Assembly (NCBI GenBank): GCA_013152205.1
Contig: JAADGV010000054.1
Span: forward strand, 124,001 to 188,000
DNA length: 64,000 nt
Reading direction: 5' to 3'
From: Planctomycetota bacterium
GTDB lineage: Bacteria; Planctomycetota; Planctomycetia; Pirellulales; Lacipirellulaceae
A program made the position numbers and the translations under genes. The notes beneath the pieces were generated by a model that was not told the origin of the DNA, did no database searches, and worked only from the letters and a program-made list of their open reading frames with translations. This document shows positions 30,116 to 45,235 of the stretch, in pieces. Position 1 is the first letter of the stretch. Each line of letters opens with the position of its first letter.

Positions 30116-30201
30116 AGAGTGGTGTCAGTAGTGCAATTAACAAGGGGTTCACGACCGTTACAGGGGTCGTGTTGAGGTTGGAACAAACGAGAGGCAATTC
30201 A

Positions 30202-32127
30202 ATGCAGAGTCTAAAACCAGCGGGATGGTTCTATAATTACCGTCCCCAATTTCCAGGCACACTTCTGTTGGCCATGCTGACCACAGGGGTTTTCCTTTTT
30301 GGCGCACAGCCTCGGGCCAATGCTGCGGTGTTTGCCTCAGGCGATGTCTTGCCTCAACAGGAATTCACCAATGTCAACATCGGCGGGCAGATGGTAACCC
30401 TTTGGGTGCCCAACCTTCCCAGTGCTGGTGGACAAGTTACCGACGATGGTACACCAACAGGCACAGCGGCCGACCTCATCGTGGGTGGCACAGGCATGTT
30501 CTCGGGTACCATACTCGAAAACGGCACACCGGTCAGCACGACCATGGGCATCGTCACCATCAACAGCCCCACCAACACTCTGCCCTTGATTGCTCCCAAT
30601 ATCAACATCGGCCAAAATAGTAACGGCATCGGCCGTGTCAGCCTTAACGACTTTGGCACTACGATGATCGCAGAGACGCTGCTCACCATTGGTGACGAAG
30701 GCCAAGGCGAATTACGCATCACCAACGGCTCGCGCGTCAACGTCGGCACCTACGACCCAATTGATTTCCGTTACGAGAATGGCGAAACCATTATCGGCAG
30801 CCAAACAGATACCACAGGTACCAACCAGTACATCTCTGAAGGCATCGTCGTCATGGATGGGTTTGGTTCCCTTCTGGAAACGGACACGCTTATGGTCGCC
30901 GACGAGGGCTTAGGCACCATCGAGCTTTCTGGCCAAGCCAATCTTGTGACTCTCGATTCCACCCTGGGCGACACGGCTGGCTCTCTGGGCCGGGTGACTC
31001 TCACAGGCCTAGGCACCCGTTGGAACAATGTTGAATTCGACTCAGGCGGCGGTAGCAATGCCGGTAAAATCATCATTGGCAACAACGGTTCGGGAATCGT
31101 AGACATCAACGATCAGGCACTTGTGGTCGCTGACATCGTCGAAATCAACCCAACCAGCTTCGTCAATCTGGCTGGTGGGACGCTCTTCACGAACAACGCC
31201 ATCATTAACAGCGGGGTTATCCGCGGTAGCGGACGTATCGAAAGCGATTTGACCCTCAATGGCACCGGCGATCTTCGCAATACAGCTGACGTGAACAACG
31301 TTCGCGAATACCTTTACGTGACCGGTATCGTCACCAACGACGGGACCATCGAATCGATCGGTGGCGAAATGGAATTCGAGTCCGCCGTAACCAATAACCT
31401 CGAAATCATTGCTCGCGACGCCATCATGCGATTCAATGGCGGACTCGTCAATAACGGATCGCTCTCGGTAGGTGGTAACACGATCATACATGGCAGTATC
31501 ACCGGGACAAGCGGTATCACGGTGTTGACCGACAGCGCGGTTACGCTCGTGGGAGACATCACATTCTCGTCCGGTAGTATCCTTAGCTTGGCAATCGGCG
31601 CTGCACCGGGAACTCTCGATATCACGGGCTCGGCTGACCTAACCGGTGCACTGTTCGACTTGAATTACTCGGCGGGCGTGATGTCGCAACCAGGCGACTC
31701 ATACCAAATCTTTCAGGCAAACGGCGGGATTCTCGGGTTCATTGGCGCTGTGGCAACGGCGGATAGTCGCATTTGGGATATCACACAAAGCGGCAACACG
31801 CTGATCGCAACAGCAACCGGCGCGATTGCAATGCCCGTGGGCGCTGACTTCAATGGCGACGGGATCGTCAATGGACTGGATCTAAGCATCTGGGAAGCAA
31901 ACCTCGGCACCATCGGTGGCGTCCCGCCAGTACCCGGCGATGCTGATGGCGATGGCGACGTTGACGGAGCAGATTTCATGAGAATCCAAATGGATTTAGG
32001 CGGACCACCAACACCCGCCATCGCGGCAGGAGGCGCAGCCGTGGTGCCCGAACCCTCCTCGGCCCTGCTCCTCGTCCTCGGCAGCCTGTTGGTTGGTACG
32101 GGTTCACTCGGCCGCAGACGCCGCTAA
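30202..32127 (+). CDS. PEP-CTERM surface protein with dockerin-like repeats
   Basis: I chose ATG 30202 (MQSLKPAGWF) with GAGAGG upstream, 641 residues. A signal peptide ends near residue 50 (ANA). The body is rich in Gly/Asn/Thr beta-strand repeats of the autotransporter-like type (LTIGDEGQGELRITNG, GKIIIGNNGSGIVDI). Near the C-terminus are two dockerin type I-like calcium loops, DFNGDGIVNGLDLSIW and DADGDGDVDGADFMRI, then VPEPSSALLLVLGSLLVG and RRRR: the PEP-CTERM sorting signal recognised by exosortase. It is probably exported, processed and surface-bound. No exosortase gene is in the window. Confidence 0.9.
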   Translation: MQSLKPAGWFYNYRPQFPGTLLLAMLTTGVFLFGAQPRANAAVFASGDVLPQQEFTNVNIGGQMVTLWVPNLPSAGGQVTDDGTPTGTAADLIVGGTGMFSGTILENGTPVSTTMGIVTINSPTNTLPLIAPNINIGQNSNGIGRVSLNDFGTTMIAETLLTIGDEGQGELRITNGSRVNVGTYDPIDFRYENGETIIGSQTDTTGTNQYISEGIVVMDGFGSLLETDTLMVADEGLGTIELSGQANLVTLDSTLGDTAGSLGRVTLTGLGTRWNNVEFDSGGGSNAGKIIIGNNGSGIVDINDQALVVADIVEINPTSFVNLAGGTLFTNNAIINSGVIRGSGRIESDLTLNGTGDLRNTADVNNVREYLYVTGIVTNDGTIESIGGEMEFESAVTNNLEIIARDAIMRFNGGLVNNGSLSVGGNTIIHGSITGTSGITVLTDSAVTLVGDITFSSGSILSLAIGAAPGTLDITGSADLTGALFDLNYSAGVMSQPGDSYQIFQANGGILGFIGAVATADSRIWDITQSGNTLIATATGAIAMPVGADFNGDGIVNGLDLSIWEANLGTIGGVPPVPGDADGDGDVDGADFMRIQMDLGGPPTPAIAAGGAAVVPEPSSALLLVLGSLLVGTGSLGRRRR

Positions 32128-32859: not shown

Positions 32860-32887
32860 TTGACGGACTGGTAGGAACTACTACACT
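32860..32887 (+). promoter_or_regulatory. Candidate promoter for the triple-hairpin leader
   Basis: TTGACG (32860-32865) and TACACT (32882-32887) are separated by 16 bp. Transcription would start near 32894 and run through the three hairpin units into the PEP-CTERM gene at 33490, giving a leader of about 600 nt. Confidence 0.45.
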
Positions 32888-32990
32888 GGGGGTATACGAC
32901 TAATGGCCGTATTCGCCTTGTGGCGGTGGCCTACTACAACCAAGGATTCGATCTAATCAAGTTCGTCCGATAATTTCGCAGTTTTTTGCA

Positions 32991-33079
32991 GGTAACGCTA
33001 ATTAGAGCGATTTTCAGAGTCTTTTTTCTCCCGTCCGTGGTGGATGGTGGGTAGAAAGGTTCTGAAAGTCGCTTTTTTT
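32991..33079 (+). promoter_or_regulatory. Tandem box-hairpin-T-run unit 1
   Basis: The box GGTAACGCTAATTA (32991-33004) is followed by GCGATTTTCAGA (33007-33018). That arm pairs with TCTGAAAGTCGC (33061-33072) over 12 bp with one G-U, and TTTTTTT (33073-33079) follows. By shape this is an intrinsic terminator. With units 2 and 3 it forms a series in front of the 33.5-kb gene. Confidence 0.75.
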
Positions 33080-33121
33080 GTGTCCTTTGTGCGGAAATAT
33101 CAAATAACAAAACTGAAAACA

Positions 33122-33215
33122 GGTAACGCTAATTACAGAGAGCGACTCAAAGAACTTTCCCTTCGCGCCCCCAAAAATGGAGGTGCGTCGAGAGTTCGTT
33201 GAGCCGCTCTTTTTT
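33122..33215 (+). promoter_or_regulatory. Tandem box-hairpin-T-run unit 2
   Basis: The identical box GGTAACGCTAATTA (33122-33135) precedes AGAGCGACTCAAAGAACTTT. That arm pairs with the complement ending GTTGAGCCGCTCT (33191-33210) over about 19 of 21 positions (counting one G-U pair), and a T-run ends at 33215. The stem sequence differs from unit 1 while the box is unchanged, so the box and the fold, not the stem bases, are conserved. Confidence 0.75.
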
Positions 33216-33288
33216 GTTAGACCGAGAAGGACGGACGCCGTGTGCGGCGAGGGTTCTTGTCGGAAAACGAAAAGTTTGAGTTGGAAAA

Positions 33289-33385
33289 GGAAACGCTAAT
33301 TAACTAAACGACGCTAGAAATTTCACGACCGGCAGTTCGCCATGCGCGATCCGCCCGACGAGGAATTTTCATGCGTCGTTTTTTT
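33289..33385 (+). promoter_or_regulatory. Tandem box-hairpin-T-run unit 3
   Basis: The box GGAAACGCTAATTA (33289-33302) differs from the other two at one base. AAACGACGC (33306-33314) pairs with GCGTCGTTT (33373-33381), the stem extends through AGAAATTTC/GGAATTTTC, and a T-run ends at 33385. The remaining leader to the start codon (104 nt) has another GC-rich stem-forming stretch near 33408-33465. Confidence 0.75.
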
Positions 33386-33489
33386 GTGGATTAGCGAGTT
33401 GGAGAGACCCGGAAAACCTTGGAAAGCCAGACGAACGCTGGTGGGTTTCCCGGAGTAAATCGGGGGTTGTTGTACTAACTTGGAGATGT

Positions 33490-34179
33490 ATGCTCATGTT
33501 GACGAAAAAGAATAGTTTTATGTTTCACAATCGGGCGATTGTGTTGGTGTTGGTTTCCGGAATGATCTGCGCGGGGCCGCTGGCCGCCAGTACCATTGAG
33601 ATTCAGTTTACCGGCTTAGATATCGAATACGTTGACGACGCCATCATAAATGTAGATCCTGGGCTAGGCGACCCTGACCCACTCAATACCGTGACCTTCC
33701 TCTTAGACGGAGTCGTGGTAGGAAGTCTTATGACGGACATCTCGATAGAGCTAAGCATACCTAGCGTAGTTGATATCGATATTGCGGGAGATACCGTAGC
33801 AAGTGCAACCGGCGGGATCATGGATTTCGATTTTGGGGGCGGCGACTTCCTGGACTTAGATTTAGGCAGCGTTAGCGTGACCTATGTCGACATCCTAGGC
33901 ATCTTTCAGTTTGCCTTTGGTGGCTCTGCCGCCGATGTGGTTGGTCAATCGCTTCCCTTTGGCCTTAGTTTGGACGGTGACGTATCCGTTTCGTTCTCGA
34001 CCCAGATCAGTCCTGGGAGCTTAATCGATGACGGTACGTTTATCACCGAATTCGCTGCCTCTGGCACTGGCGAAATAGAAGGTATCGGTATCCCAGAACC
34101 AACAACGCTGGCCCTGGCGATGCTTGGACTGATTTCTATCTCGCGAAGCTCGCTTTCAGGAAAAAATTCCTTAAGGTAG
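33490..34179 (+). CDS. PEP-CTERM protein, small
   Basis: The 229-residue product has a signal peptide (hydrophobic AIVLVLVSGMICAGPLAAS, about residues 14-32). The body is very rich in Asp, Gly, Val and Ile (DFDFGGGDFLDLDLGSVSV), suggesting beta-strands and cation binding. The C-terminus IPEPTTLALAMLGLISISR is a PEP-CTERM signal with a short basic tail. GGAG at 33482-33485 serves ATG 33490 or, with better spacing, ATG 33496. Function is unknown. It is notable for its long, structured leader and clear terminator, a self-contained regulated unit. Confidence 0.82.
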   Translation: MLMLTKKNSFMFHNRAIVLVLVSGMICAGPLAASTIEIQFTGLDIEYVDDAIINVDPGLGDPDPLNTVTFLLDGVVVGSLMTDISIELSIPSVVDIDIAGDTVASATGGIMDFDFGGGDFLDLDLGSVSVTYVDILGIFQFAFGGSAADVVGQSLPFGLSLDGDVSVSFSTQISPGSLIDDGTFITEFAASGTGEIEGIGIPEPTTLALAMLGLISISRSSLSGKNSLR

Positions 34180-44654: not shown

Positions 44655-44738
44655 CTCGATAAAGGCAAACCGATCGTCAGGTCGGGGCGCAAAGCTTGGG
44701 GACGGCGACTTAAACATCGACGTTCGCCCGGTTGCCGA
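44655..44738 (+). promoter_or_regulatory. c-di-GMP-I (GEMM) riboswitch
   Basis: The aptamer pattern is clear. GGCAAACC (44663-44670) pairs through GGCAA with TTGCC (44731-44735). CCGATC-GTCA-GGTCGG forms the second stem. The conserved GGGGCGCAAAGC (44683-44694) follows, then a third stem GGCGA/TCGCC and CCCGGTTGCCG. These are the invariant blocks of the GEMM-I class, which binds cyclic di-GMP. It lies about 225 nt upstream of flp, so c-di-GMP probably controls the Tad pilus genes. No obvious terminator follows; the mechanism (translation or processing) is open. Confidence 0.85.
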
Positions 44739-44962
44739 AAGGATGCACGATTCGCGACGCAGCGAACCGCGGCCTTACGAGGTGATACGCACTTTTCGTG
44801 TTAGTTTTTCAGGTTTGAGTATTGCAACTTGCAGGTTCGTTCAGACGACTAGTCTGGGCCGTAATGCTTAAACCAAATACCGGGAGCAACACTTTTTCGC
44901 TCCTGACAACCTTGTAGGGTGTCGGCCCCTTGTGGGCGGACGCCGAGAACCGGAGGATTTCT

Positions 44963-45136
44963 ATGAAGAATCTCACTAAGAAGGTACAACGTTTCCTCGT
45001 CTCGGAAGATGGTCCCACCGCGGTGGAATACGCCGTTATGTTGGCGTTGATCGTGATTGTGTGTTTGACTGCGGTCCGTGCTATCGGCACGAACGCTGCC
45101 GTCAAGTTCCAAGAGGCTGCTACTGCCCTGGAATAA
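44963..45136 (+). CDS. flp: Flp/Fap-type pilin
   Basis: The 57-residue product starts at ATG 44963 with GGAGG at 44952-44956. The class IVb signal is SEDGPTAVEYAVMLALIVIVC: cleavage after Gly, Glu+5 and Tyr+6, then a hydrophobic helix, with a short tail FQEAATALE. It is the major subunit of the adhesive Tad pilus and would be cut by the CpaA-type peptidase encoded downstream. It follows the riboswitch and is closed by a strong terminator, which would favour a high pilin-to-machinery ratio. Confidence 0.93.
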   Translation: MKNLTKKVQRFLVSEDGPTAVEYAVMLALIVIVCLTAVRAIGTNAAVKFQEAATALE

Positions 45137-45235
45137 ACCACCGCTGGTATAAGTTGACACCCTATTTGGTTCTAGGGCCATCGGGCCATCAGACGGCTGG
45201 TCCCGCCCTAAAGCAAAGAATAGATGCGACTTTTG

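Follow-up and report, generated by a model that had tools for sequence, protein, structure and literature searches.

The RNA targets of ANTAR regulators are paired hairpins with hexanucleotide loops. In ANTAR/EutV attenuators, an RNA element common to several genes overlaps or adjoins an intrinsic terminator in the leader, and a trans-acting protein decides whether readthrough occurs (PMC3369931, PMC8934654). Processive antitermination systems, including boxA/nut, put, EAR, RfaH-ops/LoaP and conAn, use a site early in the transcript and overcome serial terminators (PMC8955417); EAR and RfaH/LoaP serve polysaccharide operons, which is the setting of PEP-CTERM biology. The HMP-PP (thiS) riboswitch joins a compact element to an intrinsic terminator and occurs in tandem arrangements; the letters of its loop are conserved, as is a pseudoknotted alternative fold (PMC6478431). 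For PEP-CTERM genes themselves, Haft 2006 (PMC1569441) described a sigma-54 element before proteobacterial members, under PrsK/PrsR-sigma-54 control, and predicted further motifs inside and outside Proteobacteria. In strain GP59 of Methylophaga nitratireducenticrescens, c-di-GMP riboswitches adjoin PEP-CTERM genes (PMC12530212).

Here we analyse a leader within a 64,000-nucleotide stretch of planctomycete DNA (the window), in which three copies of a short box each precede a terminator-like hairpin ahead of a PEP-CTERM gene. As with ANTAR/EutV targets, the element adjoins terminators, is common to several genes and is proposed to be read by a trans-acting protein, but its conserved part is a single-stranded box ahead of one long hairpin. 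An early site and the overcoming of serial terminators are likewise proposed, as in processive antitermination, whereas here each terminator has its own box. The fusion of a compact element to a terminator and the tandem layout recall the HMP-PP riboswitch, yet the loops of the leader vary and no alternative fold was seen. The PrsK/PrsR-sigma-54 system also has a PEP-CTERM-specific cis-element in large upstream non-coding regions; that system, however, consists of an enhancer in the DNA and a -24/-12 promoter and is confined to Proteobacteria, whereas the leader combines a sigma-70-like promoter with RNA hairpins. Like the GP59 riboswitches, the leader is proposed to be an RNA element controlling PEP-CTERM genes, but an Rfam search of the window leader gave no c-di-GMP aptamer match. 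ANTAR attenuators, processive antitermination and the HMP-PP riboswitch are the nearest in design, and each differs from the leader in at least one tested defining feature.

An earlier note on this DNA, made from the letters alone, knew of no RNA class of this design, and that judgement held across Rfam and the full-text literature: the leader belongs to no RNA family described in either. Rfam returned sub-threshold matches alone, mostly miRNA-precursor-like, which we rejected as a long-stem artefact, and a full-text search, with a scope ending at subscription papers, found no description of such a leader. The leader offers, in one planctomycete family, a concrete and testable answer to the prediction of further motifs by Haft et al.

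Architecture of the leader

The three boxes, the three T-tailed hairpins and the upstream promoter proposed in the earlier note were all recovered (Table 1), and comparison with shuffled sequences indicates that they are not due to chance. Within the window, the pattern GGWAACGCTAATTA had six matches at ≤2 mismatches against 0.57 expected (0/100 shuffles reached six), whilst its exact copies across the genome are the three leader boxes alone (control pattern, 0 matches). Hairpins 1, 2 and 3 have folding energies of -41.8, -42.8 and -31.1 kcal/mol; a simple terminator scan of the window did not flag them, because its loop and stem limits are narrow. Fold and T-runs were as the note had described, whereas its stem size of 12-20 bp was an underestimate, with hairpins across the family comprising 22-39 pairs (median span ~81 nt). 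A fourth, degenerate box between the promoter and box 1, absent from the earlier note, is referred to here as box 0.

Table 1. Features of the leader and of the gene that follows it, in window coordinates.
Feature	Position	Strand	Evidence and remarks
Sigma-70-like promoter, TTGACG-N16-TACACT	32860..32887	+	Independent promoter scan; predicted leader start ~32894
Box 0, degenerate, GATTCGATCTAATC, core GATCTAATC	32950..32958	+	~40 nt upstream of box 1; without a hairpin of its own
Box 1, GGTAACGCTAATTA	32991..33004	+	Pattern search
Terminator hairpin 1 with 7-T run (33073-33079)	33004..33079	+	Folding z = -7.7; covariance-model match; lower-stem covariation
Box 2, GGTAACGCTAATTA	33122..33135	+	Pattern search
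Terminator hairpin 2 with 6-T run (33210-33215)	33137..33215	+	Folding z = -7.0; covariance-model match
Box 3, GGAAACGCTAATTA	33289..33302	+	Pattern search
Terminator hairpin 3 with 7-T run (33379-33385)	33306..33385	+	Folding z = -3.3; covariance-model match
104-nt stretch from last terminator to gene	33386..33489	+	Without a recognizable sigma-70 or sigma-54 promoter
PEP-CTERM gene, predicted secreted 229-aa protein with C-terminal sorting motif	33490..34179	+	PF07589 profile and motif

The protein encoded behind the leader matched PF07589 with E = 0.00066 and 20.1 bits (cut-off 20.7), its motif IPEPTTLALAMLGLISISR is clear, and homologues of it lie behind the box-hairpin leader at four other loci (L035, L044, L045 and L094). 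A second PEP-CTERM gene, with dockerin and T5SS/PEP-CTERM repeats, is located directly upstream (30169-32127, + strand); the covariance-model search, which found three forward units in the whole window, placed no unit ahead of it.

Conservation of the box and hairpin

A covariance model was used because the box pattern by itself is unspecific in genomes, with control patterns matching about as often. The first model comprised nine units, from the window genome, G007 and G008, and was refined with 27 units; searches covered the family, the order (397 genomes), the family again and the phylum (392 genomes). In total, 44 units in 27 leaders were retrieved, leaving out one false positive from the phylum search (L103 in G578), an ordinary box-less terminator after an unrelated gene. 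A pattern match in Elusimicrobiales (L065) was also rejected as chance, being at a coding-region edge with no box-adjoining stem like those of Lacipirellulaceae units.

Both covariation and further copies, which the earlier note had named as the check on its proposal, were thereby found. Across the lower stem of 27 units, 90.8% of cells were paired and 13 of 15 pairs had changed on both sides, giving a covariation score of 0.575 against 0.262 ± 0.021 in shuffled alignments (0/500 reached it) and ≤0.19 in slid controls, although fitting the alignment to the model somewhat favours the score. On the nine initial units, aligned by MAFFT without guidance, RNAalifold found 11 of 15 pairs compensated. 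Such stem covariation shows selection on the predicted RNA pairing of the stem.

The box was kept whilst the stems diverged, as the earlier note had observed among the window units. The core letters C, T, A, A and T were present in 44, 43, 43, 42 and 42 of the 44 units, with A at -4 in 39 and G at -1 in 38, and the flanks were at background; some boxes outside the window's genus read AGAACTAATCC. Loops and internal stem letters varied freely among units, as did the box-to-stem distance, usually within about a dozen nt. In folding models of the RNA, the box GGNAACGCUAAU is essentially single-stranded. As the sole conserved, largely unpaired element, it is likely the recognition site for something acting in trans.

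These data bear on two alternatives. The serial terminators could form a constitutive brake that sets low expression or shields the gene, the box tuning pausing or processing without a dedicated regulator, and this would suit hairpins that are strong and long, a unit number varying from 1 to 3 and a layout of promoter and terminators to which no factor has been assigned. We consider such a brake unlikely, given that CTAAT is near-invariant over eight genera of the family despite divergent stems and that conservation is confined to the box, both of which argue for sequence-specific recognition. Alternatively, each box may be a DNA operator at which a transcription factor acts as roadblock or activator, the hairpins being secondary. 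Box 0, which is hairpin-less, lies between the promoter and unit 1 and is partly palindromic in some leaders (TTAGAYCTAA), speaks for an operator; boxes 1-3, however, are non-palindromic and, on one strand only, closely precede a hairpin, and the stem covariation indicates selection on RNA pairing, making a DNA operator very improbable.

Ten of the 27 leaders (window, L033, L036, L037, L040, L042, L043, L046, L047 and L096) have a box 0-type GAYCTAA ahead of their first unit, against 0.53 expected; the fuller form is GAYCTAATC. L092 has a box 0-like sequence immediately ahead of a hairpin. Separately, the start-codon regions of L034, L037 and L042 read GGAGAAGAACTAATG, where a sequence resembling a second box type, AGAACTAAT, coincides in part with the ribosome-binding site and start codon; this overlap could be chance.

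Distribution in Lacipirellulaceae

All but one of the 27 leaders were found in 17 genomes of Lacipirellulaceae, spanning 8 of its 15 genera; the remaining one (G125), from another family of the same order, is a weak case. The unit is present in G004:C1 and in Bythopirellula polymerisocia (NZ_SJPS01000001.1), and strain Pla144 of that species has a leader of two units (L037/L066). Three units were detected in four leaders, two in nine and one in fourteen. As 14 of the 27 leaders have one detected unit, the three-unit form appears not to be essential.

In two further genomes of the window's genus (G007 and G008), the same three units occur in the same order with a PEP-CTERM gene behind them, whilst the upstream genes differ. 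Across these genomes and that of the window, with the box excluded, identity was 75-78% between copies of unit 1 and 66-72% between copies of unit 3, compared with about 48-63% for other unit pairs (52-62% for units of the same genome); for unit 2, the closer resemblance across genomes shows weakly. Units 1 and 3 resemble their orthologous units more than the other units of their own genome, and the three-unit array therefore probably predates the three species, with stems having drifted since. G010 has five leaders (L033, L034, L038, L040 and L043), and the PEP-CTERM gene behind each is a different one. A regulon under a common factor would be expected to look like this, which makes the genome the best place to seek a shared regulator.

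PEP-CTERM target genes

Although leaders were picked by RNA score and not by gene neighbours, all 25 that could be evaluated precede a PEP-CTERM gene (in the other two of the 27 the contig ends too soon), in agreement with the association that the earlier note had proposed. The gene follows directly in 23 of the 25. The target at L096 carries AEP in place of PEP, and at L039 the PEP-CTERM start lies 786 nt further downstream of the last hairpin. A second leader-like start region (GGAGAAGAACCAATG) occurs near the unit 3 hairpin of L039, a layout that suggests either inserted DNA or a gene copy that has decayed.

Carrier genomes of the window's genus have about 30-150 PEP-CTERM matches, yet only 1-5 leaders per genome. 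The target proteins fall into 14 sequence groups by BLASTP, two larger ones having 5 and 8 members, and the leader thus follows a class of genes rather than one gene. Upstream of five leaders from four other genera (L044, L045, L092, L094 and L095) lies a gene of H4MPT-linked C1-transfer type, assigned by profile match at L044 and L045 and by a similar protein start at L092, L094 and L095, and followed by an MfnE-like kinase gene at L044 and L045. Because the same upstream gene recurs, the leader at this site probably reflects long vertical inheritance.

Promoter position

Most of the 27 leaders have a sigma-70-like promoter 31-182 nt ahead of the first unit, with the best TTGACA-TATAAT match in this region reaching a combined shuffle p of ~1e-19; rrn promoters of the window's genus are of the same TTGACA/TAGAAT form. 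No sigma-70 signal was detected in the 90-nt segments ahead of units 2 and 3 (combined p = 0.72) or in the 120 nt that follow the last unit (all loci p = 0.99; window p = 0.34). Since the loci are related, the combined values are not literal, and it is the contrast between regions that matters. Sigma-54 (-24/-12) sites were absent both upstream of the first unit (p = 0.99) and after the last (all loci p = 0.93; window p = 1.0), and the PrsR/sigma-54 PEP-CTERM element was rejected on this basis.

The general layout of an attenuator is present: a promoter, then a G+C-rich hairpin with a U-run, then the gene, all on one strand with no recognizable promoter after the hairpin. With promoter signal upstream of the first unit only, the sole recognizable promoter of the gene, among sigma-70 and sigma-54 types, is predicted to read through every hairpin. 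This agrees with the single leader of a PEP-CTERM gene envisaged in the earlier note.

The note had also raised the possibility that each unit is a separate small RNA, the box being part of a promoter or the 5' end and the hairpin the body and terminator. A box, hairpin and U-run do look like a compact small RNA with its terminator, but the missing promoter signal ahead of units 2 and 3 weakens the idea; units also invariably precede a PEP-CTERM gene in the same orientation, as a leader would, and Hfq is missing from 43 of 44 genomes of the family. Separate small RNAs are quite improbable. An Hfq-dependent small RNA was rejected on the same count of genomes, the lone Hfq-encoding one being a draft at 87% completeness in which the gene is possibly a contaminant.

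Intergenic hairpins with U-runs are common, and the units might be ordinary terminators of the upstream gene that stand before a PEP-CTERM gene by coincidence. The hairpins, however, are separated from the upstream gene by the promoter, the identity of that gene varies by leader, the box is common to the leaders and all evaluable leaders precede PEP-CTERM genes. Refuted by the covariation, the order-wide covariance-model search, the PEP-CTERM targets and the promoter contrast, such a coincidence has negligible probability.

Proposed attenuation and candidate regulators

We propose that positions 32860-33489 form the leader of the gene at 33490 and would act as a serial transcription attenuator. 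Polymerase starting at the single upstream promoter would meet three intrinsic terminators in a row and, without help, stop at one of the three hairpins, leaving the gene off. A factor acting in trans, most probably a protein that binds RNA, would recognize the box and allow polymerase to pass the adjoining hairpin; as passage would be needed at each one, repetition of units would give less leakage and a steeper response. The earlier suggestion of an AND-type switch was overstated, given that the near-identical boxes would be repeats of one input rather than different inputs. Across Lacipirellulaceae, selected PEP-CTERM genes of surface or matrix type appear to be on only if polymerase passes one to three box-preceded hairpins. 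That there is a leader family of this architecture, linked to PEP-CTERM genes, is well supported, and we hold it with high confidence. Among the mechanisms, serial attenuation that a box-binding factor relieves is the likeliest, with a probability a little above even. That the hairpins terminate in vivo, and that a factor exists, binds this RNA and relieves rather than promotes termination, we infer.

Mechanisms based on RNA alone were considered. Upstream RNA showed no excess pairing with the 5' terminator arm over shuffled sequences (p<0.05 in 0/44 units; combined p = 0.53), and this result favours a trans-acting factor. A local antiterminator between the box (CGCT) and the stem (AGCG) is possible in about half of the units and was rejected, being absent where the stem starts AACGAC, with the box unchanged where the stem start changes. 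A leader peptide that terminates at the box, or else at box 0, as a short ORF ending ATC-TAA in the window and G007 might suggest, was also rejected; other leaders were inconsistent and no consistent uORF was present across leaders. With neither a conserved antiterminator pairing in the 44 units nor a conserved leader peptide, an RNA-only attenuator was dismissed.

The box and the base of the stem could instead bind a small molecule as a terminator-embedded riboswitch, serial copies sharpening the response with no protein involved. There are precedents in the tandem arrays of HMP-PP and TPP riboswitches, where a conserved element adjoins terminators set in tandem (PMC6478431), and in the PEP-CTERM genes of GP59 adjoining c-di-GMP riboswitches (PMC12530212). 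Conservation is nevertheless limited to a short box, whereas loops and internal stem vary as they would not in an aptamer; the test of pairing with upstream RNA revealed no competing fold that is conserved, and the leader has no Rfam aptamer match. A riboswitch is rather unlikely, and the HMP-PP type was rejected on the variable loops of the units and their lack of competing pairing with the upstream RNA.

Known protein factors were also rejected. ANTAR domains were found in 0 of 14 genomes of the window's genus. For an RfaH/LoaP-type factor, six leader carriers (G000, G007, G008, G013, G010 and G001) each gave a single NusG match, in draft genomes where genes may be missed. An rrn/lambda boxA read by NusB-S10 differs in sequence, boxA of the genus rrn operons being TGCTCTTTGACA, i.e. 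(T/C)GCTCTTTGACA, and the leader box CGCTAATTA. The leader probably serves a regulator that is not among the known candidates.

For the favoured serial attenuation by a box-binding factor, the varying box-to-stem distance would be awkward for simple steric blocking and fits better a factor acting on polymerase, for which box 0 is possibly a loading site. A second role of the hairpins, in processing or RNA stability, is possible, because stems of -30 to -50 kcal/mol exceed what a terminator needs. More speculatively, we put forward, at clearly less than even confidence, a new planctomycete antitermination system in which a dedicated RNA-binding factor would read serial GGNAACGCUAAU boxes and let polymerase through one hairpin at a time, so that chosen PEP-CTERM matrix proteins would be under near-digital control. 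The leader would then point to a new antitermination factor in a phylum with little-studied transcription control, and leaders with one, two or three near-identical attenuators form a natural series in which to learn how terminator repetition shapes leakage and response steepness.

Elsewhere in the window, a c-di-GMP-I-GGC riboswitch (44655-44740, + strand; 62.7 bits, gathering score 59) precedes a Flp/Tad-pilin-like gene (44963-45137), whose short, 57-aa product matched no NCBIfam model. This pair is predicted to be a second RNA-controlled surface gene of the window, 11 kb from the leader.
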